Origin: Corallococcus soli
GTDB taxonomy: Bacteria > Myxococcota > Myxococcia > Myxococcales > Myxococcaceae
DNA: 64,000 bases
Reading direction: 5' to 3'
Assembly: GCF_014930455.1 (NCBI RefSeq)
Contig: NZ_JAAIYO010000005.1
Coordinates: 186,001 to 250,000 of the forward strand
This document shows positions 16,344 to 61,709 of this stretch, piece after piece. The notes under the pieces were generated by a model, which was not told the origin of the DNA, ran no database searches, and saw only the letters and a program-made list of their open reading frames with translations. Every line of letters starts with the position of its first letter. Within the stretch, counting starts at the first letter, position 1. The position numbers and the translations under genes were made by a program.

Positions 16344-16673
16344 TCACGTAGGAGCGGCTTCGGGCGCGGTGAGGGGGTAGAGCGTCCGGAGCTGGATGCG
16401 GTGATGGTAGGCCGCGAGATACGGCTTGCCGTCAATCAGGATGGCGACCTGACGGGGAGGCTCGGGCTGCTCGCGAAGCCAGGCTTCCGCCTCCTCGCGG
16501 GTGGAGAACGCGGCCACGGGGGTGGCTGCCTTTTCCCACATGTCTCGCAAGTAGAACTTGAGGATGGGACTGGAGAGCAGCCTGCGGGTCTTCAGCTCTG
16601 GTAGGTCCATCACGTAGAAGTACTCGCCCGCGACCAGCACGGACGCCCGGTCTGGCACCGGGGACTGCGCCAT
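16344..16673 (-). CDS. Hypothetical protein, second half of a TGA-split tandem-repeat gene
   Basis: Protein of 109 residues without signal peptide or membrane segment; no named family. The C-terminal half carries AAFSTREEAEAWLREQPEPP followed by a strand VAILIDGKPYLAAYHHR. The same pattern is found in the preceding ORF (FAAFDTRAEADA) continuing across its TGA stop into LMAQSPVP and VLVAGEYFYV of this one. The two ORFs are in the same frame, and the TGA sits exactly where the repeat has Trp (AEAW). The ATG is preceded by an in-frame TTG directly after the stop. It may now be translated by reinitiation, or be half of a broken gene. It is at the end of the DUF2381/kinase gene string. Confidence 0.6.
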   Translation of the reverse strand: MAQSPVPDRASVLVAGEYFYVMDLPELKTRRLLSSPILKFYLRDMWEKAATPVAAFSTREEAEAWLREQPEPPRQVAILIDGKPYLAAYHHRIQLRTLYPLTAPEAAPT

Positions 16674-16676
16674 CAA

Positions 16677-16907
16677 TCACGCGTCCGCTTCCGCCCGGGT
16701 GTCGAAGGCAGCGAACACGAACGGGGGTTCTTCTTCCTCGATGCCCTGGCGGTATGCCCGGAAGGCCTGGGATTGGCCCATGGCATGGATGAACTGGAGC
16801 GCGTCAACCGCCGCCAGCAGTCGCTCCTTGTCCTCCTCGGATTGGGAGTCCCCGATGAGCCGCCCCAGCAGTTCCTGCGGCTCAAAGGACAGATTCTCGT
16901 GTTTCAA
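16677..16907 (-). CDS. Hypothetical protein, first half of a TGA-split tandem-repeat gene
   Basis: Protein of 76 residues, TTG start preceded by GGGGG, ending AAFDTRAEADA then TGA. Predicted to be mainly helical in the first 55 residues (ELLGRLIGDSQSEEDKERLL). I do not recognise a named family, but small proteins with a 'T-x-E-E-A-x-x-W-L' segment recur in myxobacterial accessory regions. It appears to be the N-terminal repeat of an originally longer protein; the downstream ORF continues in the same frame after the TGA. Lies 37 bp after the pseudokinase stop, on the same strand. Confidence 0.55.
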   Translation of the reverse strand: MKHENLSFEPQELLGRLIGDSQSEEDKERLLAAVDALQFIHAMGQSQAFRAYRQGIEEEEPPFVFAAFDTRAEADA

Positions 16908-16944
16908 GGTATGGCCCCCATCACGACCGTCTCATGGGCGCTGT

Positions 16945-18108
16945 TCACACCACCGGCGTCGGCAGGTGCAGCACGCTGCCGCGCGGGAAGGCTCCCACGT
17001 CCTTCTGGAACGCATTCAGCAACGGGGCCGTGCCCGCGAGCGCCTTCTGGAACTCCGCCGCCGCCTCGGGGCCACCGTAGTGCCCGCCCAGCTCCGTGGC
17101 GCGAGCCTGGAGATCCGCCTCCACCTCCTCAGCCGTCGCGTAGCGCTCCGCGGGGTCGCGCTGGAGCAGGCGGTGGAGGATGGCGCGCAGGGCCGGTGAC
17201 AACCGGAACATCAACGACTCGATGTCCTCGGGCCGGTACGCGGCGGCATGCGTGACGATGTTGCCGTAGTCTTCCGTGAACCGCCCCGCCTGCTCCGCCA
17301 CCATCATCCCCTGAAACACCCGCTGCCCATCCGCTTCCGTCAGCCGCGCCTCCAGGTCCCCCATCAGCGCACGCGGGAGGCTGTAGAGGTGCAGGCTCGT
17401 CGCCAGCTCCAGCAGCATGAGCCCCAGCGAGAACAGGTCCGAGCGCGCATCCGCGGCCTCGCCGAACAACACCTCCGGAGCACCGTAGAACGCCTGTCCA
17501 TGCGGACGCGTGATGCTGGACGGCACCCTACCCGGCAGCCGTGAGAAGGCATCTCCCAGGTCCGTGAGCACCAACGTCCCGTCCGGCGTGAACCGCAGGC
17601 CCTGCGGATGCAGGTCGCGGTGCACGAAGCCCAATGGCAGACCCCGCTCATCCGCGTGCCCATGCAGGAACGCAAGCAGGGACGCCAACTGGAGCCCTAC
17701 GTGCAACAGGAAGGCTTCGGAGTACGCATGCACATACACCAGCGGCAGCAACGACACGTCATCCAACGTGTAGCCGGGGACATGCTCCCATTCGAGGTAC
17801 AGGACGCCCGCCGCTTCATGCCCGCCGTTCAGCCGGGCGATGCGCGGGTGCTGAAACAACCGCGCGAGCTTGACCGTCTCCTGCATCCGCACGCGAGGGT
17901 CTCGCAGGCCCGACACCCGCCGCCCATCCAGGGGCAGCGCCTGGAGGAACACCGGCACGGGTTCACGCCCGGGCTGCCGCCGGATGGCGATGAGCTGCTG
18001 CTCCCCGTGGCTGCTTCGCCGCAACACCCGCACCAGCTCGAAGGACCTGGAGCCCGTCTTGAACAGCACTTCGGGAGGGGGAGGATTCACCGTCCTGGAA
18101 GGACTCAT
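16945..18108 (-). CDS. Probable Ser/Thr pseudokinase
   Basis: Protein of 387 residues with a eukaryotic-type protein kinase fold but degraded catalytic positions. The catalytic loop reads HRDLHPQG (His163-Arg164-Asp165), keeping HRD but replacing the metal-binding Asn by Gly. The DFG motif is DLG (Asp183). The beta-3 lysine is replaced by Arg in LIAIRRQ, and the glycine loop (VLRRSSHGEQ) lacks the GxGxxG pattern. GAPEVLFGEAADARSDLFSLG matches the APE and alpha-F region. It has no membrane segment. The ATG at 18108 is chosen because AAGGAG lies 10 bp upstream; an upstream in-frame ATG at 18147 has no such site. It follows the TM kinase gene and may act as its allosteric partner or as a scaffold. 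Confidence 0.75.
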   Translation of the reverse strand: MSPSRTVNPPPPEVLFKTGSRSFELVRVLRRSSHGEQQLIAIRRQPGREPVPVFLQALPLDGRRVSGLRDPRVRMQETVKLARLFQHPRIARLNGGHEAAGVLYLEWEHVPGYTLDDVSLLPLVYVHAYSEAFLLHVGLQLASLLAFLHGHADERGLPLGFVHRDLHPQGLRFTPDGTLVLTDLGDAFSRLPGRVPSSITRPHGQAFYGAPEVLFGEAADARSDLFSLGLMLLELATSLHLYSLPRALMGDLEARLTEADGQRVFQGMMVAEQAGRFTEDYGNIVTHAAAYRPEDIESLMFRLSPALRAILHRLLQRDPAERYATAEEVEADLQARATELGGHYGGPEAAAEFQKALAGTAPLLNAFQKDVGAFPRGSVLHLPTPVV

Positions 18109-18252
18109 GCCGTGCGGGCTCCTTGCCATCCACGCGGACTCAGGCATCCGGGGAGAACAAGGGCAAACTACCCTCTACGTTACCTGGGAGTGGAGGACCC
18201 AGCGGGTCCTATTAGGTTAATTTCAAGACCCGGCGCGTTCCACCAGTACGAC
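18109..18252. promoter_or_regulatory. Spacer with short hairpin between kinase and pseudokinase genes
   Basis: A 144-bp gap between two same-strand genes. It contains a perfect 6-bp stem with 3-nt loop (GGACCC-AGC-GGGTCC, 18195-18209) flanked by an unusually AT-rich TATTAGGTTAATTT. There is no T-tract on either strand, so it is not a clear terminator; it may mark a promoter or operator for the pseudokinase gene. Confidence 0.3.
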
Positions 18253-20169
18253 TCATGGGAAGGCGTGCACGACACGGTAGGCCCAGGTGCGTGGCATCCT
18301 GACCGCGCCAGCCTTGGAGCCCGGAAGCCACTCCCCGCCATCAAGGTTGCCATAGACGAGGCACACCGGGATGACGCGTCGGTCCGGCAGCTCCGCCCGG
18401 GTGTAGCGGCCCGTCACCCTGCCTCCGCCCGTCCAGAGCTGTCCATACAGGCGGGTGCCCGTGGGCAGGTCCCCATAGCTTTCAACGGTGAGGCTGACAA
18501 TGGGGCCATCGCGGACGATGAGCTCTTCCGAGTTGTTGCCCGGTTGATTGATGTCCGTGAGGATGCTGGCGCTGCCGGTCTCATTCATGGAGAGCTTGCG
18601 CATGGCCTCCAACGCCCCTTCGGGGCAGCGGGTCGGGTCGGGTCGGATCTGCGCTCCCGCGCAGGCGGTGAAGGCCACGGCGCCGGCGGCCAGGGTGCAC
18701 CGCTTGAGCTTCCCGAGCGCCCCCGCGCGCACCGGGGAGGAGTTGACGGCCGCCTGCCGCGGCGCACGAAGGGTCATGTCTTCTTTCTCCTGCTGGAACA
18801 GGGCGGGTGGAAGAGCCTCCCCCGCCAGAGGCGCACGAGCTTGGTACGGCCCGGGGGACGGCGCCATTTGCTGGACGCCCGGCACCGGGGCCACGACGCC
18901 CGGGACATGCTCCAGACGCCAGGAAGCGAGCCCCGCGAGGAGCAACCCCGCCAGCAGCACGGGAACCACGGCCCACCTCAGCGGATGCGAACGCCAACCG
19001 CCCCCACGCGCGGCACGGAACGCCCGGGCTTCGACCTCCGCCACCTTCGCCGGGTCGCGTTGGCGCAGCTCCCGCACCTCACGCAGCCGGTGGACCTCTT
19101 CCACGTGCCTCGCCCGCGCCTCCCGCAGGGCGACCTCCTGCCCCGGCATCACGGGGCCCTTCGCCTCCGCCGCCTCCAGCGTCGTGCGCGAACCACTGGA
19201 CGTCCTCTCGCGCCAGCCGAACAAGGGGGCCTCCCACGCCGCGTCAGCGACCGCCAGCGCTCGGCGCACCTCCCGGGCCACGGAGGCCGTGCCCTCGGGA
19301 CGCTGTTCGGGCGCGAAGGCCAGCAGCCGCAGGATGATGGACTCCAGCAGCGTCGGCACACGCGGGTTGAGGTCCTTCAAGGATCCCAGGCCCTGGGACA
19401 CCAGGGGCTCGATGGGCACGAGCCACGGCAGCGCGGGATACTGGTCCACCAGCAGGCGGTAGAAGGTGACTCCGACCGCGTACATCTCATCCGCCACCGA
19501 GTAGGTGTAGGGCTCCAGGGCCCCGGGCCGGCGCTCCGCCGACGCCCGCCACCGGAGGAGCTGGGGGCTGTAGTAGCGCGGACTGCCCGGCGGAAGCCTG
19601 GCGGTCTGGGTGAGGGTGGGCGCCCCCGCGTACCAACCCGCGCCCCAGTCCAACAGCTTCACCTTGCCGTCGAGGGTGACCTGGACGTTGTCGCCCTTGA
19701 AGTCCCGGTGCATGGCGCCCCGCGCGTGCGCGGCCGCCAGCGCCTCCAGCACCTGCGCCAGCAACAGCGCCACCTGACGCGCCGTGGGGTTGCGAGCCAG
19801 GGCCCACTCGTAGAGCGACTCACCCTCCACGTACTCCATCACCAGATAGGGGTGCTCCACCGGCCCCAGCCGCCAGATGCCGTGCGTGATCAGACGCACC
19901 ACGGCCCGGTGTCGTACGCGGGCCAGCAGCGCCGCCTCCCGCGCGAACCACCGCTCCCCGGGACGCCGCGACAACTTCAACGCATACAGCCGCCCGCGCG
20001 CGCGTCCCGCCCTGCGCACCGAATAAGTGGTGCCATAGCCTCCTGCCCCCAGGCGCCCCACCACCTCCCAGCGCTCCACCCGGGTGCCCGGCGGCAACCA
20101 CTCCGCGGACAAGAGGACGTGCCCTGCCCCCAGCCCGAAGCGACCGGCTTCCAGCGAATCACGGCTCAC
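18253..20169 (-). CDS. Transmembrane Ser/Thr protein kinase with extracytoplasmic domain
   Basis: Protein of 638 residues. The kinase domain (about 30-300) has an intact glycine loop (GAGGYG), Lys65 in YALKL, alpha-C Glu78, HRDFKGDN (His154, Asp156, Asn161) and DWG in place of DFG (Asp174). One membrane segment (WAVVPVLLAGLLLAGLASW, near 395-415) separates it from a Pro-rich linker and a C-terminal domain (about 480-638, including SEELIVRDGPIVSLTVESYG) predicted to face the periplasm and belonging to no family I can name. The GTG start overlaps the DUF2381 stop by 4 bp (GTGA) with GGAGGG 9 bp upstream. DUF2381/kinase pairs recur in myxobacteria; a secreted-sensor plus receptor-kinase pathway is inferred. 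Confidence 0.85.
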   Translation of the reverse strand: MSRDSLEAGRFGLGAGHVLLSAEWLPPGTRVERWEVVGRLGAGGYGTTYSVRRAGRARGRLYALKLSRRPGERWFAREAALLARVRHRAVVRLITHGIWRLGPVEHPYLVMEYVEGESLYEWALARNPTARQVALLLAQVLEALAAAHARGAMHRDFKGDNVQVTLDGKVKLLDWGAGWYAGAPTLTQTARLPPGSPRYYSPQLLRWRASAERRPGALEPYTYSVADEMYAVGVTFYRLLVDQYPALPWLVPIEPLVSQGLGSLKDLNPRVPTLLESIILRLLAFAPEQRPEGTASVAREVRRALAVADAAWEAPLFGWRERTSSGSRTTLEAAEAKGPVMPGQEVALREARARHVEEVHRLREVRELRQRDPAKVAEVEARAFRAARGGGWRSHPLRWAVVPVLLAGLLLAGLASWRLEHVPGVVAPVPGVQQMAPSPGPYQARAPLAGEALPPALFQQEKEDMTLRAPRQAAVNSSPVRAGALGKLKRCTLAAGAVAFTACAGAQIRPDPTRCPEGALEAMRKLSMNETGSASILTDINQPGNNSEELIVRDGPIVSLTVESYGDLPTGTRLYGQLWTGGGRVTGRYTRAELPDRRVIPVCLVYGNLDGGEWLPGSKAGAVRMPRTWAYRVVHAFP

Positions 20170-21098
20170 AGGGACAATCCCTCCCACCGCACGGCGCGGT
20201 CGCCCTCCTGGTTCCAGGCCTCCATCAGGTAACGGGCGCCCGGCGCCAAGCCCTTCGGCATGTGCCACTCCACCACGACCTTTCCGCGCATTCCTGGCGT
20301 CAGGCGGGCTTCCAGCATCCGCACGGGTGCCTCCAGGACGACGCGGCCTGGCTTCCCGTCCGCCTCCAAAAGGGTCAGCCGCGCCACGCCCGGCACCCAG
20401 GGGGCTGCCTCCAGGGCATTGCCCAGGGTGAACGCCAGCACCCGGGTCGTGAGGTGGCGGTAGAGCACGGTGCTCCCCATGACCTCCAGCCCTGGTCCGT
20501 TGAGGGCCTTGGTCGGCCGTTCGAACGACACCGCCTCTGGCCCCAACGCACCGATGAGCACCGCGCCCCCCAGGCCGGTCTGGGCGCACTGTGCCCGCAG
20601 GAGCGCGAAGCCCGCCTCCGTGGCGGCGCACTGGCCCCGGAGCAGGGCCAGCTCCTCGCCCAGGGCTTCAGGGGACAGGGCGTGGCGGGAGACCTCCACC
20701 AGGGTGTCCACCTCCTTCGGATCCGTGACGAGCAGGAACGTCACCTGCCGGGGCGCGTCCTCGCCCGCGAAGCGCGCCGTGACGAGCGGCCGGGCGGAGT
20801 CGGGCATGGCCACGGACGGGCGCAGCACCATCACGCCCGGGTACACCTTCACCTGGGCGAACAGGGGCGCCAGCGCCTTCGTGTCCACGGAGGACGGCAG
20901 GATGTCATCGTTGAACACGACGGTGGTGACCACGCCGGGAGCGACGCGCAGCAGGTGGAGCGTCGTGGCCTCGTCGGCCCGGACCACGAGCCGGCGCTCC
21001 TGATGGACGCGCCGGTCCGGAGCCCCCGCCCGCGCCGGAGCCGCCGCGACCAGCGCCATCACCAGCATTGGCAAGACAACCGCACGGGATGCGAACAC
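20166..21098 (-). CDS. DUF2381 family exported protein
   Basis: Protein of 310 residues with a signal peptide (MFASRAVVLPMLVMALVAAAPARA). The body follows the DUF2381 pattern: RRLVV near the N-terminus, a beta-rich segment with TVVFNDDILP, VTFLLVTDPKEVDTLVEV, a short helical linker with paired Cys in RGQCAATEAGFALLRAQC, and a C-terminal beta domain ending in VVEWHMPKGLAPGARYLMEAWNQEG. Function of the family is unknown; it is confined largely to Myxococcota. The GTG at 21098 is supported by GGAGG 8 bp upstream; a longer frame exists to 21119. Overlaps the transmembrane kinase by 4 bp, so the two products are made together and probably meet at the periplasmic face of the inner membrane. Confidence 0.85.
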   Translation of the reverse strand: MFASRAVVLPMLVMALVAAAPARAGAPDRRVHQERRLVVRADEATTLHLLRVAPGVVTTVVFNDDILPSSVDTKALAPLFAQVKVYPGVMVLRPSVAMPDSARPLVTARFAGEDAPRQVTFLLVTDPKEVDTLVEVSRHALSPEALGEELALLRGQCAATEAGFALLRAQCAQTGLGGAVLIGALGPEAVSFERPTKALNGPGLEVMGSTVLYRHLTTRVLAFTLGNALEAAPWVPGVARLTLLEADGKPGRVVLEAPVRMLEARLTPGMRGKVVVEWHMPKGLAPGARYLMEAWNQEGDRAVRWEGLSL

Positions 21099-21178
21099 GC
21101 AGGCAACCTCCAGCGTCACACCCTACCAGAAGGGAGTGACGTGGCGGGGTGCCATGGAGGGCCGTGCCACGAAGCGCT

Positions 21179-21760
21179 TCAGGGGATGATTTCTGGAGAC
21201 GCGGTGAAAAGCGCGTGGAACAGCGTCGTCTCCGGAGGCGCCTTCCACTCCACGAACAACGGCACTGGCCGGTGCGCGCTCTCCCAGGGCAACAGCCGGG
21301 CCCCGAACTCCGCTTCGATGGCGCTGCCAATCACTTGAGCAGGCGTCAGGAGGGACTCGGGGCAATGCTCGAATCGCACCTCCGCGCTGCGCATCCCCCC
21401 GCGCTCCCGCTTCTTCCGCACGGCATAGACGACATAGACAGGCGCCAGGATGCTGACGCACCCAACAGCAATCCACCGTGCCAGGGGTGCCGTCCCATCT
21501 TCGGGCGGGTAGGCAATACAGCGGAAACACGGCACGGTCGTCGGGGCCGTTCCATCACCCACCACGAAGCCGGGCAACTGGCGCTCCAGTGTCTCCAGGA
21601 AGGCGTGCCACCGCCCGATCTTCGGCAGCTCCTGCGCCCAGAGTGCCGCCAACCTTCCAGCCTCTGGACTCAATTCCTGTCGGAGATAGTAATCATCATC
21701 CGTTCGCCAATACCGCCTGGCTACCTCCAACAATTGATCCCCAGTCAATGACGTCACCAT
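21179..21760 (-). CDS. Hypothetical single-pass membrane protein
   Basis: Protein of 193 residues with one hydrophobic segment in the middle (WIAVGCVSILAPVYVVYAV, about residues 95-113) followed by KKRERGG, which suggests the C-terminal half is cytoplasmic and the N-terminal half periplasmic. Cys-Phe-Arg-Cys (CFRC) lies about 17 residues before the membrane segment. No named family is recognised. ATG chosen for the GGGGA 6 bp upstream. It lies 80 bp before the DUF2381 gene on the same strand and is the likely first gene of the DUF2381/kinase cluster. Confidence 0.65.
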   Translation of the reverse strand: MVTSLTGDQLLEVARRYWRTDDDYYLRQELSPEAGRLAALWAQELPKIGRWHAFLETLERQLPGFVVGDGTAPTTVPCFRCIAYPPEDGTAPLARWIAVGCVSILAPVYVVYAVRKKRERGGMRSAEVRFEHCPESLLTPAQVIGSAIEAEFGARLLPWESAHRPVPLFVEWKAPPETTLFHALFTASPEIIP

Positions 21761-22070
21761 TCGCTTCCCCTCAAAGCAGGTAGTCGCCAAATTGGACGGG
21801 TGGAGCCTTCGACTGACACTTCCTTGTCATTTGCGCTCCTTCGATGGAAGCAGCGATAAATGGCATCTATGACAATCGTTGTCGAAGAGCCCGAGCATCC
21901 CCCACAGGAGCAGGCAAGGAACCACGCTCAAGCAGCCCCGCCGTCTGCTCTCATCCGATGTTGAGCGGCCTCTGGCACTTCGCACCTCTCTCAATGGATG
22001 CACCCATGATCATATCGGGACCTCCGAGCGCCCATGCCGTCGTCCAACTCATGTGATTGCGGCAAGTCTG

Positions 22071-22382: not shown

Positions 22383-22970
22383 GTGCAAGAGAGCCCCCAG
22401 GCGGCAACCTCCAGCGTCGCCATCAAAGAAGCGCTGGATGCATATGAACTCCGCCACTCCTACCCCGAAGAAGCAGGGACCTCACGAGGAACGAAGGTGG
22501 CAACCCGGGAATCTGAAGCACAACACAAGCCCGAGTCGAAGCCCGAGCCGGCGGGGCAGGACTGGTTTCCCCCAGCACCATCCGAATCACCGGAGCGCGA
22601 GCGCCACCCCGAGTGCAGGCCCGTCCCGGTGCGACATCTGGGCGGCAACGAGCCACACAATGAATGCGCTGACAAGATTCCCAACAACAGCTTCCCTGAC
22701 TGGGATGTGCTCGTCAATGGGAAGAACTTCGACGGGCTGGTACTCATCACTCGCACGCTGTGGGATGTCAAGACGGATGACTTTGAAAAACAGCCGCCAC
22801 GGCCTCAAAGGTTCTTTGTCAGGATGAAGCTGCCTGAGCTGAGGCGCGAAGCCAGGCTCGCAAGGGACTGCGGGTACAACTTCGTCATTGGAGTGCGAAG
22901 CGCCGCGCACAAAGCCGTGCTGTTCGACGAAGACCCCACCCTGAAATTTGTCATCATGGATTGGTGTTGA
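22383..22970 (+). CDS. DUF6310-type protein, apparently N-terminally truncated
   Basis: Predicted 195 residues with GTG start and no ribosome-binding site. After VAIKEALDAYELR there is a Glu/Pro/Lys-rich linker, then a conserved-looking domain (about 75-195) with HLGGNEPHNECADKIP, DVLVNGKNFDGL, LWDVKTDDFEK, NFVIGVRSAAHKA and a C-terminal MDWC. From memory this is the C-terminal domain of myxobacterial DUF6310 proteins, which normally carry a lipoprotein/membrane N-terminal half; here that half is absent and coding similarity begins at VAIKEALDA. The WDVKTD motif resembles a nuclease D/ExK core, so a toxin role is plausible but inferred. The next gene starts 1 bp after its stop and looks like its immunity partner. 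Confidence 0.55.
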   Translation: MQESPQAATSSVAIKEALDAYELRHSYPEEAGTSRGTKVATRESEAQHKPESKPEPAGQDWFPPAPSESPERERHPECRPVPVRHLGGNEPHNECADKIPNNSFPDWDVLVNGKNFDGLVLITRTLWDVKTDDFEKQPPRPQRFFVRMKLPELRREARLARDCGYNFVIGVRSAAHKAVLFDEDPTLKFVIMDWC

Positions 22971-22971
22971 A

Positions 22972-23730
22972 ATGACGGCCGCTCATAGAACCCTCATCAT
23001 TATCGCCCACGCGCCCGCGCTCCAGAACAATGACGACCGCCCGACCGCGGTTGTCCATGCAATGGAACGTGCGCTGCCTGGCTTGCGCTTGGGGTGGACG
23101 ATGTCCGAAAAGGAAGACCTCATCGCATTGCCTCAACGCGACGAGTGGGTCGCGGCCAACATGGCAAATGGAGGGTTTCCGTTCCTCTGCAACGATGATG
23201 ATAACCATCTTGTGACGGTTGCTGGACTGGAAAACCCAAACGGTCTTGCCGCAGGGAGCCCGCCGCATCTTGAAATCCATGCGGACCTGCCACTCGACGC
23301 GGTCAGCATCGCGGAGGCTGTCGATGTGCTTGCAGGTTTAGCGGAGGGCGCTCGCGCGGTATGGGGGCATGCGACGCCGAGCGGTTATGGTGGGATCGTG
23401 GCGCAACAGTTCCGCCACCCCGGCGATGAGTTGCACGTTCCGCCCCTCGGACTGCCGTCGCTCAAGCTCCCGTGGAACAGGTCCACACCTGAGATTCCGC
23501 ACTTTCTCGGGTGGCTGAACTACTGGTCTGCCGCTGCCGCGCAGGCCATCGGGTTCCCGGACCCACTCCGTGACGCCGCGCTGCTTTCACGGGCACGGCG
23601 CACGGCAACGGGCGGGTGGGTCGTGCAGCTCACCGATGCGCCGCTCGCTCTGGACAACCCTGCCCACCTGGACGCGCTCCAGCGGGCCTATGAGCGGTTC
23701 CCGGAGATCGGTGGACGCGCACCGCCTTGA
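22972..23730 (+). CDS. DUF5953-type putative immunity protein
   Basis: Soluble 252-residue protein without signal peptide. It resembles, from memory, the DUF5953 family found directly after DUF6310 genes in Myxococcaceae. Recognisable stretches are LTLIIIAHAP-like at the N-terminus (TLIIIAHAPALQ), FPFLCNDDDNHLVTVAGLENP and the C-terminal WVVQLTDAPLALDNPAHLDALQRAY. Position immediately after a toxin-like gene, with a 1-bp gap, supports an immunity or antitoxin role; no catalytic motif is seen. If the upstream gene is dead, this would be an orphan immunity gene that still protects against kin carrying the toxin. Confidence 0.6.
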   Translation: MTAAHRTLIIIAHAPALQNNDDRPTAVVHAMERALPGLRLGWTMSEKEDLIALPQRDEWVAANMANGGFPFLCNDDDNHLVTVAGLENPNGLAAGSPPHLEIHADLPLDAVSIAEAVDVLAGLAEGARAVWGHATPSGYGGIVAQQFRHPGDELHVPPLGLPSLKLPWNRSTPEIPHFLGWLNYWSAAAAQAIGFPDPLRDAALLSRARRTATGGWVVQLTDAPLALDNPAHLDALQRAYERFPEIGGRAPP

Positions 23731-23797
23731 CCTCGACCAGGAGGCTTGGGACGCGGCTCAAGCCGTAGGAGAGAGACCCACTGCGCGGGCGTCCACG

Positions 23798-24418
23798 ATG
23801 GTCGCCTCCCATTCGGGAGGTCATGCACCATTGCTCCAACCGTACAGATTGGCCCTCGCGCTTACGCTCGTGCCCGTCTCGGGAGCTGCTGCGGGGGCTG
23901 AGACGGCCACAGGGGCACGCGTTGGCCGTAAGCGCTCCGTGACCATCGCCAGCACGCCCGCCGAACCGCGGCCCATCGTCCATGTCGCGGCGGACGCCCG
24001 GACGGTATTCCTGTTCTCTGCGCCGATCCAGCGGAAGACCCTCACCTTCGCCGAATCCCTGATCCATGTCCTGGATGCGGGCGAGCGGTCGATCATTGTT
24101 CAGCCCGTGGCCAATCTCACTGACGGCGAGCGGCAGGCGATCGGGGTCTTCTTCGCTGACGGCCGAGCATCCACCCGGGCCGCCTTCGTGCTCGTGACAG
24201 ACCCGAGCGACGTTGACGCACTGATTGACGTGCAGCGCCCGGAGCCTCCAAACACGGTCTGTCAGCCTTCAGATCATGCACCGGCGCCGAAGCCGGAAGA
24301 CCTCGTGCTGCGTGGCTACGCAGACCTGAAGCATCCCCTCATTTTCGATTTCCCCTCGGAGCTTGCTCCCTCGGCTGCCCATGGGTTCTCCGAGGAGAAC
24401 CTTCAAGTGAGGGGATAG
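23798..24418 (+). CDS. DUF2381 family protein, C-terminally truncated
   Basis: Predicted 206 residues: a hydrophobic leader (LALALTLVPVSGAAAGAE), then the N-terminal DUF2381 pattern RKRSVTIAS, VHVAADARTVFLFSAPI, ERSIIVQPVANLTDGERQAIGVFF and AAFVLVTDPSDVDALIDVQ. These align in order with the intact DUF2381 protein at 20166. After VCQ the family's linker and C-terminal beta domain are missing, replaced by about 55 unrelated residues to the stop. No kinase gene follows. The ATG has only a distant AGGAGAG (26 bp), so the start is uncertain. Probably a decaying paralog stranded beside the toxin genes. Confidence 0.55.
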   Translation: MVASHSGGHAPLLQPYRLALALTLVPVSGAAAGAETATGARVGRKRSVTIASTPAEPRPIVHVAADARTVFLFSAPIQRKTLTFAESLIHVLDAGERSIIVQPVANLTDGERQAIGVFFADGRASTRAAFVLVTDPSDVDALIDVQRPEPPNTVCQPSDHAPAPKPEDLVLRGYADLKHPLIFDFPSELAPSAAHGFSEENLQVRG

Positions 24419-24498
24419 CTCAGGGTGAGCCCTGGGGTACCTGCATCCACAAACCAGCCGCCTCCACGAAGGTTTCCATTGGGTAGCAGCCTGGAATC

Positions 24499-25251
24499 TC
24501 AGACCGTAGTGAGCGGCATGAGCCCAGCTCGGTCCAGCAGATCTCGCACGCGCCGCGTCAGCGCCACATGGTCCGGGTTGGCTACCGAGAAGCGCTCGGG
24601 GGTGAGGACGATCAGCGTGCCTTTGTCCTCGACCTGCTTGATGCGGACTGGAGCTGGGAGCGGCGGCACCGTGCCCCGCTGACGCGCGAGGTACGTCACC
24701 CAGCCAGGCCACACGCCGGCCTTGCCGTCCAGTTCCCGATGCGTGTGGGACATGGCCACCGCCCAATCAGGTTCCCAGGCCAGCGCCATGCTGCGCACCA
24801 CCTCGGCCAGCACGGTTGCCGTGAGGATTCGCTCCGCGTTCTCCCCCTTGGCCGGTAGCGACAGGACGCACGAATTGGCAATGCTGAATTCGGCGTAGCT
24901 TCCGCATTTCATATTGACGGACGCGAAGTCCTGGCCGGCTCCATCGTTGTATGCCCCAACGCGAAAGCCCAGATCTTCGATAGGCGGCCCGCCGGGCTCC
25001 CGGTTCACGCCGCGCCGGAATGCTTCCGTCAACGCAGGGAGGGAAGGCGGCATGAGCGGGGTCTTGCGCCCCTTGCCGCGCGGTTTGGGAATCTTGTTCC
25101 AATGCGCCAGCAGGGGGTCACAAGCGGCCAGCAAGTTGAGAAAGGCCTCCGCTCGATGGGCGCACTCCTCGGGGGACTCCTTGCGAGGTCCCCAGTAGGC
25201 GCCAGCGTGGTAGGAGTCAGGATGGAGCGCAGGTGTGGGCTGAGTGGTCAT
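24499..25251 (-). CDS. Imm52 family immunity protein
   Basis: Soluble protein of 250 residues matching the Imm52 pattern: YHAGAYWGPRKESPEECA near the N-terminus, a central block GAYNDGAGQDFASVNMKCGSY, and WPGWVTYLARQRG with a C-terminal ERFSVANPDHVALTRRVRDLL. Imm52 proteins are the known immunity partners of Tox-REase-5 toxins, and the gene directly upstream encodes one. The ATG lies 12 bp after the toxin stop; an in-frame GTG at 25260 is an alternative. It presumably binds the nuclease domain in the cytoplasm to protect the producer and its kin. Confidence 0.8.
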   Translation of the reverse strand: MTTQPTPALHPDSYHAGAYWGPRKESPEECAHRAEAFLNLLAACDPLLAHWNKIPKPRGKGRKTPLMPPSLPALTEAFRRGVNREPGGPPIEDLGFRVGAYNDGAGQDFASVNMKCGSYAEFSIANSCVLSLPAKGENAERILTATVLAEVVRSMALAWEPDWAVAMSHTHRELDGKAGVWPGWVTYLARQRGTVPPLPAPVRIKQVEDKGTLIVLTPERFSVANPDHVALTRRVRDLLDRAGLMPLTTV

Positions 25252-25263
25252 AACGCGCACTTG

Positions 25264-26895
25264 TCAGCGTACCAAGGAGCGGGCCGGGGTGTGGATGACG
25301 GTGATTTCAGTGAAGCCCCTATTCTCAAGCAGCTTCCGCATCCCATTGGCTGCATGCATCTCGGCGACGTGCCATTCGATGCGGATGCCCAGGCCCTGGA
25401 CGATACGGCGCTGCCGCTCGGCTTGATCCGCGAGGTCTTGGAGCTTGCCTGACGCCTCAAACCAACTCTTGGGGTCGAAGTTGTCCTCGAAGAATTCAGC
25501 GTAGCCGGGTCCCTTGGCCTCCAGCAGCACTCCCTCTTCGAAACCGTCGAACTTCACGCCACCAGCCTTCGTGCTCGTGCCACCGACCCAATACGCTTCA
25601 TCCGCCGAATGCCCGGTGATCTGCTCCTGATAGCGTCGGGCACGCGTGGACATCGACTCCTTCACGGGCCCCCACTGCCCAGGCCCCTGGGAAGGGGCCC
25701 CTCCCTTCGAGGCCGTGTTCGCCCGCTGAAGAATGATGGCCGCCCCAGGCCCGCCGCTCAGTGCCGCCGCCGCGCGCCCTGCTGGCACCGCGATGCGCTC
25801 GAACGCCAACGCGCCTTCCGCCGACAGCGAGAGCACAGGCACCGAGACTTCCGCGCCCACCGCCATCGCCTTCAGCGTCCGTGTCGTGGCTGACGCTGCG
25901 CCCCCGGTGATGAGCAGGCCCGTCGTCAGCCGCGACACCTCGCGGATCTGCTCGCCACGCGTCATGGACTGGAAGCGCTCCCAGTACACGGGCGATGACG
26001 TGATGAGGGCCACCACTCCCGCTGGCAGGCGGCTCAGTCCCGCGACGCTGTCCACGGGATGGGTGAGCAACTGTCCCAGCGCGTGGTACAGCTCCACGAA
26101 GGCGTCCTCGGCTCCATCCAGGGTGCGGCTGATGACGTCCGCGTCGTCGTACACTTCCGCCATTGGGCGCCAGTCCGCCGCTTGGAGCTGCGCGTCCACG
26201 GTCCGGAAGACGCCGCCCTTGCCGCTGTAGAAGCGGCCCAGCTCGAAGCCATGCGCGCGGAAGGCGCCGTCCTTCCATTCAACCGTTGCCGCCTTCTGCT
26301 GGGTCCGTCCGGTGAGTGCCCACGCCAGATAGCCATCCGGTCGCAGCACCGCGATCTGCTCCCGGGAGAAGCGCTCCACCCGACGCAACAACTCCTCCCG
26401 TGTGACTTCGCCCCCCTCCAGCACCTCGCGCAGGATGAAGCCCGCTGCCATGCGAGGCGGGAAGTTGCCCAGCGTGACGGGCTTCCCCGAGAGCACGGCC
26501 AGCAGCCGCGCGGCATGCGTGGGCGTCAGCACTCCACCCAGGGGGCGCTCATCCCGCGCCTCCAGCCCCGCGTTCGTCAGCAACAGCTCCCAGCCGTCCG
26601 GTTGCACGTCGTCAGGGTTCGCGACGTCCGCCATCTCCACCGCGTTGACGGGGCTCGCCCCCGTCACGACTTCGCGCACGGCCTTGCGGCGGTACAGGGG
26701 CGGCGCTTCCTCACGAGGCGTGACACCCGGCACCGGGGCGGATGCACGCGGCGCCTCGTCGTTCGACGCGCGCGCCCCAGGGGAATCCGTGGCCGTGCGG
26801 GACGTGTAGTTCAGCGTCCTTCCGGGCCCGGCAGGCAACGAGGCGCAGCCGGTGAAGAGGAGGGCCACGCACCCGAGCAGGACGTCAGCGCGCAT
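25264..26895 (-). CDS. Lipoprotein polymorphic toxin with Tox-REase-5 domain
   Basis: Protein of 543 residues. The N-terminus is a lipoprotein signal with Cys17 in LLFTGCAS. A long central region (about 60-410) has several hydrophobic stretches (VDSVAGLSRLPAGVVALITS, TTGLLITGGAASATT, AAALSGGPGAAIIL). The C-terminal domain (about 418-543) matches restriction-endonuclease-fold toxin 5, with Asp450, Glu459 and Lys461 in FDGFEEGVLLEAKGPG forming a PD-(D/E)xK core and WHVAEMHAANGMRKLL near the end. It starts 11 bp inside the upstream outer-membrane gene and is followed by its Imm52 partner. By analogy with SitA toxins, lipidation would allow cell-to-cell transfer by outer-membrane exchange; that route is inferred. 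Confidence 0.82.
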   Translation of the reverse strand: MRADVLLGCVALLFTGCASLPAGPGRTLNYTSRTATDSPGARASNDEAPRASAPVPGVTPREEAPPLYRRKAVREVVTGASPVNAVEMADVANPDDVQPDGWELLLTNAGLEARDERPLGGVLTPTHAARLLAVLSGKPVTLGNFPPRMAAGFILREVLEGGEVTREELLRRVERFSREQIAVLRPDGYLAWALTGRTQQKAATVEWKDGAFRAHGFELGRFYSGKGGVFRTVDAQLQAADWRPMAEVYDDADVISRTLDGAEDAFVELYHALGQLLTHPVDSVAGLSRLPAGVVALITSSPVYWERFQSMTRGEQIREVSRLTTGLLITGGAASATTRTLKAMAVGAEVSVPVLSLSAEGALAFERIAVPAGRAAAALSGGPGAAIILQRANTASKGGAPSQGPGQWGPVKESMSTRARRYQEQITGHSADEAYWVGGTSTKAGGVKFDGFEEGVLLEAKGPGYAEFFEDNFDPKSWFEASGKLQDLADQAERQRRIVQGLGIRIEWHVAEMHAANGMRKLLENRGFTEITVIHTPARSLVR

Positions 26896-28207
26896 CGTCC
26901 ACTCCCAAGCCCACCGAAGCGAAGGCACCTGGACGCAGCGTCCCGTCTCCTTCGGGGAACAGCAGCGTGCCGCCCGTGGCCACCGCGTAGAGCTTCCCCG
27001 CCGCGATTCGCCAGCGCGCTTCCGCCACGCCCAGGTAGCGCGCCCCGGGTTGGCCCAGGCCCACGCCCAGCCCCTTCACCGCCACTTCCAGGTTGCGCTC
27101 CAGGAGCTGCACCGCCACGCGCCCGTCCACGTCCAGGCGGCCCCAGGAGAAGGCCTCCACGCTCAGCGACAGCATCAAGTGCCGTTGCAGTCCGCGATAG
27201 CCCACGGCATCCCAGCCCACGCGGGCCTCGCCCTGGAGCGAGTACCCGTCCGGGAAGCGAATGGAGGTCAGTGGCACACCCTCCAGGCCCACTGCCTGGA
27301 AGCGCGCCAGTTCGTAGTCCGAACCGAAGAAGCCCTGCCGGAAGCCACCGTGCTGCCTGCGCGCCTCCAGCCGCAGCGATACGTCCCGCGTCGGCGTCAC
27401 CGAATCCGCGCCCACGCCCAGCACCGCGCCCCAGGCGCCTCCGACGCCCGGCCGTCCTCCCCAGCCTGCCAAGAGGTGCGCTTCCAGGCCCGGGCGCCTG
27501 AGCACCACCGCCGTTGCGTCCAGGTGCGCCAGCGTCACGGACAGCGCATTCCCTCCGAATCGTCCCCAGTCATGCACGGCGGAGACAGCGAGCGTGTATC
27601 GCCCCGGCATGTGACCGGCTCCGAGGAGAACGCGCCCCACATCCAGCGCGACCTCCGCTCCCATCAGCCGCGCGCCCAGCACATCCGAAGCGAAGGCCTC
27701 CGTGTAGAGCGGCCCGACGGTGCCCGTGAGCAAGCCGCCCGCCGGGTGGTAGTCCGGATTCGTTCGGTTGGAGTAGCGGCGCACCAGATGCGCCGACAGC
27801 AGGCTGTAGTCCTCCAAGGCGCCCAGCCACACGCCCACGGGCGCCGCGTCCGAGCCCAACTTGAGGCCGCGCACGAGCTGGCCCCAGTCGGAGAGACGGT
27901 CCCAGTCCTCGCGTCGCACGCGGCCCGCGCCGCCCCACGCTCGCAGTCGGACGGGGGCGCCCAGGTTGAGCCCGAATTCCGGACCGCCATCCAGGATGAG
28001 CGTGGGCTCCAACTGAACGAAGCCTTCAGCCCTACCGCGGCCCGAGCGTGGCAGAAGCGCGAGCGTCGCCACCTCCAGCCGAGCCAGTGAAGACCAGGAG
28101 CGGGTTGGCGCCTTGGGCGCAGCGGCCTCGGATTCTGACGACGCCGTGGCCTCCCCCCGCATGGGAAGGAGCCATAGCCAAAGCACCGCCCACCAGCGGT
28201 TACCCAT
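26885..28207 (-). CDS. Predicted outer-membrane beta-barrel protein upstream of toxin
   Basis: Protein of 440 residues with a short N-terminal hydrophobic leader (WWAVLWLWLLP). The remainder is a succession of amphipathic strands rich in Gly, Tyr, Trp and alternating residues (for example EGFVQLEPTLILDGGPEFGL, GLQRHLMLSLSVEAFSW, KLYAVATGGTLLF), consistent with a beta-barrel. No named family. GGAGG lies 8 bp before the ATG. The stop lies inside the toxin gene (11 bp overlap), so barrel, toxin and Imm52 form one operon. A role in surface display, delivery or reception of the toxin is inferred, comparable to the accessory gene of sit loci. Confidence 0.6.
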   Translation of the reverse strand: MGNRWWAVLWLWLLPMRGEATASSESEAAAPKAPTRSWSSLARLEVATLALLPRSGRGRAEGFVQLEPTLILDGGPEFGLNLGAPVRLRAWGGAGRVRREDWDRLSDWGQLVRGLKLGSDAAPVGVWLGALEDYSLLSAHLVRRYSNRTNPDYHPAGGLLTGTVGPLYTEAFASDVLGARLMGAEVALDVGRVLLGAGHMPGRYTLAVSAVHDWGRFGGNALSVTLAHLDATAVVLRRPGLEAHLLAGWGGRPGVGGAWGAVLGVGADSVTPTRDVSLRLEARRQHGGFRQGFFGSDYELARFQAVGLEGVPLTSIRFPDGYSLQGEARVGWDAVGYRGLQRHLMLSLSVEAFSWGRLDVDGRVAVQLLERNLEVAVKGLGVGLGQPGARYLGVAEARWRIAAGKLYAVATGGTLLFPEGDGTLRPGAFASVGLGVDDAR

Positions 28208-53504: not shown

Positions 53505-53520
53505 GGGCGGGGCCTCCGGC

Positions 53521-54330
53521 TCACGGCGCGCCCCGTCCGGCGTAGAGGCAGTCCAGCGCCTCGTCCAGCAGGCACAGGGCGGCGTCGCTCCACCCGCGCA
53601 GCCGCTGCTGGGGGGTGGGCCGGCCCACGTGGGGGATGAGCTGCGCGTCGGCGGCGTCCTCGATGAACTGGGCCTGCTGCTCCGCGTTCAGCTCCGCCCA
53701 CCGGCGGTGGCCCACGGCCTTGCGCCAGTCGTAGCCGTCCCCCAGGTACTGCGCCGCCAGCGCGCCGCTCAGGTAGCCCGTGCCGCCGTGCTGGTGCTGC
53801 CACACGTGCGTCAGCTCGTGCACCAGCAGCCGGAAGCCCACCGCGCCGTAGCCAGGGGGGATGAAGAGGATGTCGCCGTGGGCGAACGCGCGGCCCGGCA
53901 GGCCCAGCAGGCCCAGGGCGCCTTCCTTCACGCGCACGCAGCGGAAGTCCAGGCTGTCGCCGAAGATGGGCTTGAGCCGCGTCACCTCCGCGTCCGTCAG
54001 CCGGCGGCCCACCGGCTCCAGGCCGGACATCACCTGCACGGCGCTGAGCACGCGCCCGCCCACCATCAGCACCAGGTCCATGGGCACCTGCGCCGCGCGG
54101 AACAGGCCCCGCTTGAGCTGGGGCAGGCCCTCCCGCGAGCGGCCCGTCGCGCAGCGTGCCATGCCGCCGGCCAGCAGCATCAGCGCCACGTACGCGCTGC
54201 GCGCGGCGCCCGCGGACGCCCCGGCGATGCCGGTGAAGAGCCCATGGCCCGCGTCCGCGACCCGCTCGGTCAGCGGCGCGAAGCGGGTGTCACGGACAGC
54301 CTGTCGATTCAGCGAGGTGGGAGACCCCAA
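53521..54330 (-). CDS. DUF4157-like HExxH protein
   Basis: 269 residues from TTG 54330 (GGAG 7 bp upstream; GTG 54360 is an alternative). A central segment LTDAEVTRLKPIFGDSLDF, then FIPPGYGAVGFRLLVHELTHVWQHQHGG, carries the zinc-protease motif HELTH (His171, Glu172, His175). This combination is typical of DUF4157-like domains found in secreted toxins and phage or contractile-injection cargo, here in a cytoplasmic-looking stand-alone form. The N-terminal 60 residues contain one hydrophobic helix (AGAARSAYVALMLLAGGMA). The start overlaps the upstream degenerate receiver gene by 41 bp. Substrate unknown. Confidence 0.72.
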   Translation of the reverse strand: MGSPTSLNRQAVRDTRFAPLTERVADAGHGLFTGIAGASAGAARSAYVALMLLAGGMARCATGRSREGLPQLKRGLFRAAQVPMDLVLMVGGRVLSAVQVMSGLEPVGRRLTDAEVTRLKPIFGDSLDFRCVRVKEGALGLLGLPGRAFAHGDILFIPPGYGAVGFRLLVHELTHVWQHQHGGTGYLSGALAAQYLGDGYDWRKAVGHRRWAELNAEQQAQFIEDAADAQLIPHVGRPTPQQRLRGWSDAALCLLDEALDCLYAGRGAP

Positions 54331-54808
54331 GGACCAGCTCCAGGAGCGAACGCAACTCACCGGAGCGCCAGGGCCGGCCGAGTGCGAAGTGGGAATGGCT
54401 GGAGGCCCGGAAGGTGGCGCTGGCTTCAGGGCGGAAACCGGAGGACAGGAGGATGCGCGGACCGCTGAAGCCCCGGTCCACCAGACGGCAGAGGAAATCG
54501 CTCACGACGCGGCGATCCGCGTCGAGGTCCAGCACCAGCCCATCCACGTCCACACCCATGTCCAACCGCCGGTCCGCCGACGTTGCCCCCAGCGCCGCCA
54601 CCACGCGGCACCCCTCCCCCACTTCCCTCGCTACCGCCAACCGTACCTCGGGCGACTCGGAGACCACCAACAGCACCGGCTCCGCCGACGCCGGCCGGGC
54701 CGCCGGGACCGCCGTCAGCTTCCCGCGCCGTGCACCCGGGGCTGCGGGCGCCGTGGGGCGGGAGAAAGCGAATTCCGGGACAAGGAGGGAAGACGGTGCG
54801 ATGGACAC
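54290..54808 (-). CDS. Degenerate receiver-like protein
   Basis: 172 residues, GTG start. After a Pro/Ala-rich leader (1-42) there is a receiver-like fold: VLLVVSESPEVRLAVAREVG (the acidic pair replaced by Ser-Glu-Ser), VDGLVLDLDADRRVV with an Asp at the phospho-acceptor position, ILLSSGF and HFALGRPW where TKPF-like Lys is replaced by Arg. Missing acidic pocket and Lys mean it is unlikely to be phosphorylated in the usual way. First gene of the operon with the HExxH protein and the glycolipid-binding protein. Confidence 0.65.
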   Translation of the reverse strand: MSIAPSSLLVPEFAFSRPTAPAAPGARRGKLTAVPAARPASAEPVLLVVSESPEVRLAVAREVGEGCRVVAALGATSADRRLDMGVDVDGLVLDLDADRRVVSDFLCRLVDRGFSGPRILLSSGFRPEASATFRASSHSHFALGRPWRSGELRSLLELVLGVSHLAESTGCP

Positions 54809-54851
54809 GTCCTCACAGTAAACAGCAATATCGGAAATATCAAGCTTGGCT

Positions 54852-56081: not shown

Positions 56082-56305
56082 GCGCGCCACCTTCCGCCCC
56101 GGACATCCACCTGGGGCGCCTTCGAGCGCGGGAAGATAACGGGCGCCCCCACGCCGCGCCCGGCAACCCCTCCAGGGGAACAAGGGCGCCCTGCCCCGCC
56201 GCGCCTGGTCCTCTTGCCCCAACGGGGCCGGAAGGCACCTGGGAACGCGGGCACGGCTTCGCGGATAGCGTGCGGACAGAAGCTGGTCGCGACCGCGAGG
56301 CGGGC
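56082..56305. promoter_or_regulatory. Divergent spacer upstream of SitA5 toxin gene
   Basis: 224 bp divergent region expected to carry promoters for the phosphoesterase and the toxin operon. GAGG lies 5 bp before the toxin ATG. No repeat or hairpin stands out. Confidence 0.35.
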
Positions 56306-57643: not shown

Positions 57644-57652
57644 GAACCACTC

Positions 57653-58225
57653 ATGGCTGCTCGATTCTTCGACCTCTCGGAGGATGTCCAGGAAGGGAAC
57701 TGGTTCCTGGAAGATCCCGTCGACATGAACTCCGTGGAGGTCGAGGTCGATCCCTGGATGTTCAGAGCCGGGAAACCCATTCAAATGCCAGAGCGGCTCC
57801 GGGTTCCCATCGGCGAACCTGGACGGTCTCGGGACTTCTCACTGGCGGGCATCGGGCTGACCCCCATCGTCCACGTCAAGCTCGCGACCGTCCTCGCGGA
57901 GCGTGCCGCCGACGACGTGCAACTCCTCCCGGTCGACATTCCCGGTCAGCCCGACCAATACGTCCTCGTGGTCGCCACGAAGACCCTCCGCTGCATTGAT
58001 GAAAAGGCCTCCGAGGAGGTCCTCTTCTGGGAGCCCAGACACAACAAGCCTGAGAAGCTCGGGCAGTACCGCTCCGTGTACGGCATGCGCATCGACCCAT
58101 CGAAGGTCGGCGCGACCCAGCTCTTCCGTCCCTGGGGATGGCGGGTCGCGCTCATCGTCTCCGAAGACCTCAAGACCGCGCTGGAACAAACGGGCGCCAC
58201 CGGCATGCACTTCACCGAGGTCTGA
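57653..58225 (+). CDS. Imm11 family immunity protein
   Basis: 190 residues, soluble, no signal. Resembles the Imm11 (DUF1629-type) family: RFFDLSEDVQEGNWFLEDP at the N-terminus, a central VHVKLATVLAERAADDVQLLP-like segment, and the C-terminal LFRPWGWRVALIVSEDLKTA followed by LEQTGATG. AGGA lies 8 bp before the ATG. Placed directly after a SitA5/AHH toxin, it is the predicted cytoplasmic antidote for that nuclease. Its C-terminus is nearly repeated in the relic at 28531. Confidence 0.8.
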   Translation: MAARFFDLSEDVQEGNWFLEDPVDMNSVEVEVDPWMFRAGKPIQMPERLRVPIGEPGRSRDFSLAGIGLTPIVHVKLATVLAERAADDVQLLPVDIPGQPDQYVLVVATKTLRCIDEKASEEVLFWEPRHNKPEKLGQYRSVYGMRIDPSKVGATQLFRPWGWRVALIVSEDLKTALEQTGATGMHFTEV

Positions 58226-58259
58226 ACCGGAGCTTACGGTCCAGACCCAGCCCGCGCGC

Positions 58260-60611: not shown

Positions 60612-60668
60612 GCCCCCATGGTGCCCCAGCGGGCCGCCGGGGTCGAGCGTGTCCCACCCATCCCGCCT

Positions 60669-61169: not shown

Positions 61170-61184
61170 GGGGCGCGAAGCCTA

Positions 61185-61691: not shown

Positions 61692-61709
61692 GGCGGGCCT
61701 CCAGGTTGT

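Follow-up and report, generated by a model that had tools for sequence, protein, structure and literature searches.

A DUF2381–kinase unit in Corallococcus soli as a candidate trans-envelope kinase with probable kinship to the type IV secretion core complex

The window analyzed here is a stretch of 64,000 nucleotides from Corallococcus soli (contig NZ_JAAIYO010000005.1, positions 186,001 to 250,000). Our subject is a group of its minus-strand genes, which encode an exported protein of the DUF2381 family, a transmembrane (TM) Ser/Thr kinase and a second protein with a kinase fold. An earlier note on this DNA had reported these three genes in this order, with the kinase GTG overlapping the DUF2381 stop (GTGA), and we find the same; the GTG is at 20169 and the overlap is 4 bp. 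The features of the unit are as follows.

20166-21119, minus strand: DUF2381 gene (PF09544/TIGR02268; PF09544 match at 9.5e-78)
18253-20169, minus strand: transmembrane Ser/Thr kinase, 638 amino acids (PF00069 match at 8.5e-25), the kinase-tethered form
19264-20088, minus strand: kinase domain within it, with HRD (HRDFKGDN) and DFG-type (DWG) motifs
18925-18981, minus strand: transmembrane segment of the kinase (Kyte-Doolittle 2.03)
18787-18791, minus strand: internal Shine-Dalgarno (SD)-like AGGAG, 9 nt ahead of the nested ATG
18253-18777, minus strand: proposed nested in-frame lipoprotein gene, 174 amino acids, with its ATG at 18777
18661-18663, minus strand: lipobox Cys (AFTAC)
18256-18663, minus strand: putative VirB10/TrbI-like domain (the mature lipoprotein, or the kinase ectodomain)
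16945-18147, minus strand: kinase-fold third gene, likely a pseudokinase (PF00069 match at 7.7e-16)

The DUF2381 protein has a signal peptide, as judged by eye, and a beta-sandwich C-terminal half. The kinase is laid out as a cytoplasmic kinase domain, one TM segment, a linker and a C-terminal domain, which we call the ectodomain. We found no description of such a unit in the literature searched. No paper turned up for DUF2381 or TIGR02268, with most subscription papers beyond the reach of the search; titles and abstracts returned for Myxococcus with VirB10 and kinase, or for a VirB10-kinase domain fusion, were all irrelevant; and nothing on a DUF2381-kinase system appeared among the papers listed for nested genes.

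We surveyed the regions around DUF2381 genes in the window's own genome and ten closed genomes, together with four regions from three others, mostly as 12-kb stretches in which stop-to-stop frames were searched with profiles built from the window proteins. The sample comprised 20 regions of the 39 matches in genome G033 and 2 of the 9 in G034, and some weak or fragmentary matches (in G018, G037 and others) lay outside it. It yielded 140 DUF2381 frames, of which 129 were full-length; the 11 fragments (profile span of 200 or less) were dropped. The ectodomain is encoded in a same-strand frame within 400 bp of DUF2381 for 125 of the 129 genes: fused to a kinase downstream (53) or upstream (38), as a stand-alone lipoprotein downstream (31), or in a split frame upstream (3). 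Three further genes have only a kinase frame beside them (L078, L079 and L072, a broken gene), and L128 alone has neither. A kinase frame adjoins DUF2381 in 94 of the 129 cases, or 96 when the split genes L117 and L159 are included, and 29 of the 53 downstream fusions allow a 4-bp NTGA overlap. The linkage of DUF2381 with the ectodomain is far above chance. Because it holds for 125 genes as against 94 for the kinase, the near-invariant partner of DUF2381 is the ectodomain, whether as part of a kinase or as a lipoprotein on its own. The proposal of an undescribed envelope signalling unit thus gains support from the gene neighbourhoods.

The ectodomain itself points to type IV secretion systems (T4SS). 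Its stand-alone form starts with a lipoprotein-type signal. An alignment of 56 mature sequences, all chosen to begin at the lipobox Cys, shows two invariant cysteines, Cys 13 and Cys 101. No Pfam family covers the domain, and the window's copy has no TrbI (PF03743) match at E 0.1. TrbI, the VirB10 family, is matched by 3 of the 56 (best 8.9e-5) and TraM of conjugative transposons by 2 (best 0.0036). A search of 97 genomes for TrbI found 14 places, six of which lie within kinase C-termini (L198, L201, L203, L204, L205 and L206); six of the other eight are high-scoring canonical members, and the last two, in G193 and G126, were outside the inspection. In this search L201 (genome G130) and L203 (G108) exceeded the Pfam cut-off alone and L198 (G127) did so together with neighbouring matches. 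As a single protein, L201 scores 36.0 bits for TrbI, where the cut-off is 35, and matches Pkinase at 1.5e-36; scanned directly, the G127 kinase (as L078) and L204 stay below the cut-off at 31.3 and 28.4. Profile comparison by hhalign connects the ectodomain to these kinase-TrbI C-termini (96%, 4.6e-9), these to five canonical VirB10 proteins (93%, 2.8e-7), and the ectodomain to canonical VirB10 (67%, 5.3e-5), while none of four cross-pairs run as a control was significant. Neither a structure model of the ectodomain built from 6 sequences (predicted local distance difference test, pLDDT, 46.3, too poor for a fold search) nor a sequence-profile search of the PDB (two matches of no weight) contributed. 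Overall, the kinship of the ectodomain to VirB10/TrbI, and with it a VirB10 ancestry, appears fairly well supported.

The TrbI-matching kinases adjoin DUF2381 or a diverged form of it, with one gene between them in L203. The diverged forms match DUF2381 partially at 9.5e-6 in L205 and at 5.4e-4 in L206; the one in L204 has no Pfam DUF2381 match but reaches 1.1e-12 with a profile built here. A VirB4 profile made from L078, L201 and L204 found 15 distant loci, its three sources included; the clusters belong to more remote Myxococcota. In fourteen of them a kinase whose C-terminal part is long shares a strand with a DUF2381-type gene, the latter a weak match in L205 and L206; the fifteenth, L229, is cut inside the kinase. 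In 11 loci VirB4 is found upstream of the kinase frame, at a distance of 2.9-5.0 kb, and in L205 and L206 it is downstream. In these clusters the DUF2381-type gene directly precedes the VirB10-like gene, for example in L201, L204, L223-L225, L227, L230-L233 and plasmid NZ_CP123279.1, and the genes between VirB4 and DUF2381 have no assigned family, apart from a TraE-like one in L204 (0.0078). Built from the kinase C-termini of L198, L201, L203 and L204, a four-sequence profile recovers 11 of the 12 other T4SS-type kinases at whole-protein E values of 5e-7 or better and misses L206. Of 16 T4SS-type kinases, 15 retain an intact HRD...N motif. In 13 of 15 there are 304-335 residues between the best TM segment and the C-terminus, and the linker after this segment contains 7-17 Pro; the layout differs in L205 and L206, and L232 has extra hydrophobic segments. 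By their predicted topology, these 13 T4SS-type kinases share the layout of VirB10: a cytoplasmic N-terminal part, a single TM segment, a Pro-rich linker and a C-terminal domain.

One such cluster is plasmid-borne. On NZ_CP123279.1 of Myxococcus sp. MxC21-1, positions 53519-62760 (L256) are annotated as a TraC family protein, three hypothetical proteins, a DUF2381 family protein and a protein kinase; the last of the three hypothetical proteins is weakly TraE-like (0.011), and another part of the plasmid has a coupling-protein-like gene (PF02534, 1.2e-7). Among 72,556 records, this plasmid was the only one to match either query at E 0.01. The four-C-terminus profile finds its kinase at a whole-protein score of 1.1e-34, and the C-terminus of this kinase is 38.9% identical to that of L201 (4e-28). 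The plasmid, typed as non-mobilizable, carries VirB4 (TraC), TraE-like, DUF2381 and kinase genes. None of the strings type IV, conjug, kinase and DUF2381 occurs in the paper naming MxC21-1 (PMC11705834).

The plasmid and L204 share the order TraE-like, DUF2381-type, kinase, which is the order traE-traK-traB of the F plasmid. The VirB4 profile matches none of the 129 stand-alone loci, the window included, and only L078 among the 131 survey loci; the window genome (G000) has no canonical VirB10 (PF03743) or VirB9 (PF03524) match at E 0.001. By gene content, the stand-alone units, the window's among them, keep only what appears to be the VirB9/VirB10-like pair of a T4SS.

DUF2381 occupies the VirB9 slot in these clusters, and hhalign joins the stand-alone DUF2381 proteins to the T4SS-locus set at 99.9%. 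TraK_C and DotH/IcmK, both VirB9-type families, are matched by 5 (best 6.2e-4) and 4 (best 1.1e-3) of 61 DUF2381 members. A TraK_C search of 189 genomes gave matches in 6 at E 0.001 and above the cut-off in 2; the three places above the Pfam cut-off, alone or with neighbouring matches, all lie inside Corallococcus DUF2381 genes. Two VirB9-slot proteins of G108 have weak matches of their own, L204 to CagX (0.017, in its N-terminal part) and L203 to DUF4138 (4e-5). A model of DUF2381 from 7 close sequences had a mean pLDDT of 55.2 and was good only for residues 174-294, in the C-terminal half; its listed fold matches (Foldseek, VIA-align) were NPC2, archaellum FlaF/FlaG, GH2, potassium-channel and other Ig-like domains, and a PDB sequence-profile search gave mostly chance matches to coiled coils. 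The slot and the weak family matches of relatives together lend moderate support to DUF2381 as a VirB9/TraK-like protein of VirB9 ancestry. We also considered CagX-family VirB9 as the closest relative of DUF2381, for which hhalign was not significant; the link to F-type TraK is better, though few members show it.

The kinase gene appears to hold a second gene. In the fused kinases the second hydrophobic segment is followed by a lipobox column with Cys in 92 of 92, and the same column is Cys in all 40 stand-alone copies (members of this alignment were chosen to hold the Cys, as 132 of 133 aligned frames do; L123, broken and misaligned, was excluded from the alignment and from the 92). Ahead of the outer domain, 73 of the 92 genes have an SD-like site with an in-frame ATG, GTG or TTG (NTG). 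Control windows gave such a pair in 119 of 649 cases in the kinase domain and 52 of 280 in the linker, and synonymous shuffling gave a mean of 36.2 of 92 with a maximum of 44 in 100 shuffles. Codon choice at the site is biased as well. In the 60 of 92 genes that fit a protein pattern marking it (K-E/D, then V/L/M/I), Val at the nested start is GTG in 41 of 41 (background 1255/2129, 59%), Leu is TTG in 9 of 15 (background 391/2786), and Glu at the SD-like site is GAA in 43 of 50 (background 392/1781, 22%). The nine non-NTG cases, four CTT, two CTG and three Ile (the window, L064, L074, L083, L124, L125, L092, L091 and L070), are ones in which, by eye, the pattern overlooked a nearby ATG or GTG. 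Because related sequences are not independent, we thinned the set, and 47 low-similarity representatives still show the signal in 32, compared with 16.6 by shuffling (reached by 0 of 200 shuffles). The putative signal peptide of the proposed nested product, called from sequence, ends in the lipobox Cys. Given the lipobox Cys, the SD and NTG signals and the bias in synonymous codons, a single gene probably yields the outer domain in two forms, one tethered to the kinase and the other a free lipoprotein. In none of the 92 fused frames does a stop codon come between the kinase and lipoprotein parts, yet the internal signals persist, so both products seem to be selected.

The kinases themselves have intact motifs: among the 92 fused kinases the HRD Asp and the DFG Asp are each kept in 91 and the catalytic Asn in 90. 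There are 57 full-length kinase-fold third genes within 1.6 kb of one of these fusions; the third gene is common in the units but not constant. All 57 have lost the Lys of HRDxK, 46 the catalytic Asn and 22 the HRD Asp. The earlier note had described the window's third protein as having damaged catalytic residues. By eye (HRDLHPQG, DLG), it has lost the HRDxK Lys and the catalytic Asn and has kept both the HRD and the DFG Asp; the protein is likely a pseudokinase, though the two Asp leave activity possible.

A search for DUF2381 hit 69 of the 96 genomes from the family and 78 of the 195 from the phylum, with no hit among 14 control genomes; the window genome has 12 matches, and the highest count in one surveyed genome is 39, fragments included. 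Five of seven relatives in named genomes lie on Corallococcus contigs, with identity of up to 90%. We built an unrooted tree of 74 DUF2381 sequences in four arrangements, T4SS (15), DUF2381 then kinase (20), kinase then DUF2381 (25) and stand-alone lipoprotein (14). The arrangements need three changes on it, the minimum possible, compared with a mean of 40.2 when labels are shuffled. Support is 100/100 for two of the groups, 89/91 for the T4SS group and 77/63 for the window's own arrangement.

Some ectodomain copies lie apart from the listed DUF2381 genes. In nine genomes a profile search turned up 103 matches, from which we chose by eye 13 such isolated copies for inspection: four kinase fusions, and nine copies of a more distant type, one per genome. 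Three of the fusions (L243, L245 and L247) adjoin a gene for the C-terminal half only of DUF2381, which in L243 scores 24 bits in Pfam, below the cut-off; none was found in L241. This half standing alone beside kinase fusions suggests that it may be the part of DUF2381 that contacts the kinase ectodomain. The distant copies are L242, L244, L246 and L248-L253, and in L244 (6564-13001, the one scanned) the copy follows tamB and tamA homologues.

We consider it fairly probable, if well short of settled, that the unit is a stand-alone trans-envelope kinase exapted from the outer-membrane core complex of a T4SS. DUF2381 would be a VirB9/TraK-like subunit exported to the periplasm or outer membrane, and the kinase a VirB10/TraB-like bitopic protein. 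Its intact Ser/Thr kinase would lie in the cytoplasm, a single TM helix would lead into a linker in the periplasm, and its TrbI-like C-terminal domain may dock on DUF2381. The internal ribosome-binding site and start codon would provide a free lipoprotein copy of this domain. DUF2381 and the lipoprotein could then form a reduced outer-membrane assembly, possibly a ring, in which some of the VirB10-like subunits are tethered to kinases. A change in the assembly would pass through the bridging kinase, modulate its activity and report the state of the assembly to the cytoplasm, and the kinase-fold third gene may supply a scaffold or regulator. A 2025 review places the C-terminal domains of VirB9 and VirB10, with VirB7, in the outer layer of the core complex, and describes VirB10 as the only known subunit that bridges the core complex to the inner membrane and as apparently coordinating responses to signals; its main text contains no word beginning with kinase (PMC12857230).

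Several results weigh against this reading. The window's DUF2381 and kinase have no Pfam match to any T4SS family at E 0.1, and the plasmid kinase has no TrbI match at that threshold, only one to TraM (0.059). A four-sequence profile of kinase-TrbI C-termini finds none of five canonical VirB10 proteins at E 10, so that this link rests on the Pfam TrbI scores and hhalign. Both TraE-like matches fall under the Pfam cut-off. In the scan of 61 DUF2381 members, unrelated families score 0.0026-0.006, close to TraK_C and DotH, which makes those matches weak when taken alone. Compared by hhalign with six CagX-family VirB9 proteins, neither DUF2381 (0.9%) nor the T4SS-locus set (1.7%) is significant, and VirB9 is absent among the 50 fold matches listed for the DUF2381 model, of which only the C-terminal half was well modelled. 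Finally, 19 of the 92 fused genes lack a clear SD and NTG, and the nested signal weakens under stricter thinning, to 15 of 25, where 10.2 are expected and 4 of 200 shuffles do as well, and to 8 of 12, where 4.0 are expected and 1 of 200 does.

These last two results would suit nested signals that are relics of an old gene fusion, or sites of ribosome pausing, with only the full-length kinase being made. We regard this as distinctly unlikely: Cys in 92 of 92, GTG for all 41 Val and the GAA bias at the SD-like site recur across diverged paralogues and point to continued selection at the nucleotide level. The second hydrophobic segment, which is conserved in the fused kinases and in some copies exceeds the TM threshold, could instead be a second TM helix that leaves the fused C-terminal domain in the cytoplasm. 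This is highly improbable, given that the segment always ends in the lipobox Cys, that the stand-alone domain has a lipoprotein signal, that the invariant Cys 13 and Cys 101 fit an oxidising compartment and that T4SS-type kinases mostly show one TM segment. The earlier note had taken DUF2381 for a secreted sensor or ligand, the kinase for the receptor and the pseudokinase for an allosteric partner; on this reading DUF2381 would be of its own kind and the kinase an ordinary receptor with an unrelated ectodomain. The gene overlap, the export signal and the intact kinase are all compatible with that. However, in 31 of 129 cases the ectodomain beside DUF2381 is a lipoprotein with no kinase at all, and the pair takes the VirB9 and VirB10 positions in VirB4-bearing clusters. 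The ligand–receptor pairing therefore strikes us as quite improbable, and a VirB9/TraK-like subunit with a VirB10/TrbI-like ectodomain explains the data better.

A further alternative places the units as accessories within SitA-like lipoprotein toxin/immunity islands, where DUF2381 and the lipoprotein would help to deliver or receive toxins and the kinase would report attack or contact. Relatives of the toxin/immunity genes in the window, the only such families sought, occur in 35 of 131 loci. Counted by DUF2381 gene, they accompany 22 of 53 with the kinase downstream and 11 of 41 with the kinase upstream, that is, 33 of 94 kinase units, compared with 0 of 31 lipoprotein-only units (Fisher 2.7e-5). 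In the ten closed genomes, with DUF2381 fragments mostly excluded, DUF5953 lies within 6 kb of DUF2381 in 9 of 64 cases (1.6 expected) and Imm52 in 8 of 50 (1.1 expected). Yet most loci have no gene of these families, strands and orders vary, and shared insertion hot spots could bring the genes together; the accessory protein SitB, moreover, is reported to have no detectable homology by HMMER/HHpred (PMC5562445). We think this alternative unlikely, and it may be a function of the T4SS-derived complex rather than a competing account of it. Because kinase units and not lipoprotein-only units lie near these genes, contact or attack is a candidate signal. At L098 (6355-8709) and L112 (6258-10923), Tox-REase-5 and Imm52 genes lie directly downstream of DUF2381 on the same strand. 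That DUF2381 might itself be SitB, as the genes following it at these two loci could suggest, was set aside on the description of SitB.

The flanking features of the window are as follows.

21179-21790, minus strand: one-helix protein of 203 amino acids
16344-16676, minus strand: open reading frame of 110 amino acids
23882-24268, plus strand: second, truncated DUF2381 (positions 4-133 of the profile) following a DUF6310-DUF5953 pair, with no adjoining ectodomain frame

The 203-amino-acid protein has 4 related frames, two of them in L043 and L044, which are close relatives of the window; the 110-amino-acid frame matches no Pfam family at E 0.1, and 6 frames related to it turned up at 5 of the other loci searched. 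With so little recurrence we rejected both as members of the unit, so that of the five-to-six-gene cluster proposed earlier, the DUF2381, kinase and kinase-fold part stands and these two neighbours drop out. Farther along, at 22383-26928, lie the DUF6310 and DUF5953 pair, Imm52 (24499-25260) and a protein with a Tox-REase-5 C-terminus (25264-26928) that looks lipoprotein-like by eye; these genes resemble SitA-type cassettes. The truncated DUF2381 directly follows the DUF6310-DUF5953 pair, an order also found at L072, L128, L067 and L106, and it is likely a remnant of a toxin-linked unit.

The closest known system is the T4SS core complex, VirB7/VirB9/VirB10, which in the F system is TraV/TraK/TraB. 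Both have an exported VirB9-like and a bitopic VirB10-like protein from adjacent genes, and a lipoprotein in the unit. In the DUF2381 unit, however, a full Ser/Thr kinase forms the cytoplasmic part of the VirB10-like protein, the VirB10-like domain itself, and not a VirB7, is the lipoprotein, and the stand-alone units have no VirB4 nearby (0 of 129) and, in the window's own genome, no TrbI or CagX match at E 0.001. The kinase resembles PASTA kinases such as PknB in its cytoplasmic eukaryotic-like kinase, single TM segment and extracytoplasmic domain, and differs from them in that the outer domain is TrbI-like, with DUF2381 as its near-constant partner, and that a free lipoprotein form of it is encoded too. 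As with the long and short forms of CheA, where an in-frame internal start gives two products, one frame would here give two products from an internal ribosome-binding site; unlike short CheA, the shorter form would acquire a lipoprotein signal peptide, which would move it to another compartment. The SitBAI cassettes of Myxococcus (PMC5562445) share the presence of lipoproteins, and related toxin genes often lie near the DUF2381 units, but the units have no toxin domain, and DUF2381 is a Pfam family while SitB is reported to have no detectable homology.

It is tempting to speculate that a T4SS with a kinase-bearing VirB10, perhaps sensing mating contact, shed its VirB9-VirB10 pair, which then grew into a large receptor family with up to 39 matches per genome. 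One frame would make a mixed assembly by internal initiation, with the translation ratio setting the number of kinases per outer-membrane ring, and one lineage would have dropped the kinase. We offer this history tentatively, as plausible.

If the exaptation from a T4SS core complex is right, DUF2381 gains a concrete identity and a testable partner, and proteins of a secretion core would represent a new route to a trans-envelope receptor. The T4SS clusters in which the VirB10-like protein is a kinase would open the question of signal relay through VirB10 to a direct kinase assay. From the nested start one expects a single gene to give two products in different compartments, something that standard annotation would overlook. 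Myxobacteria have a large number of Ser/Thr kinases, and units of this kind could explain part of that abundance.

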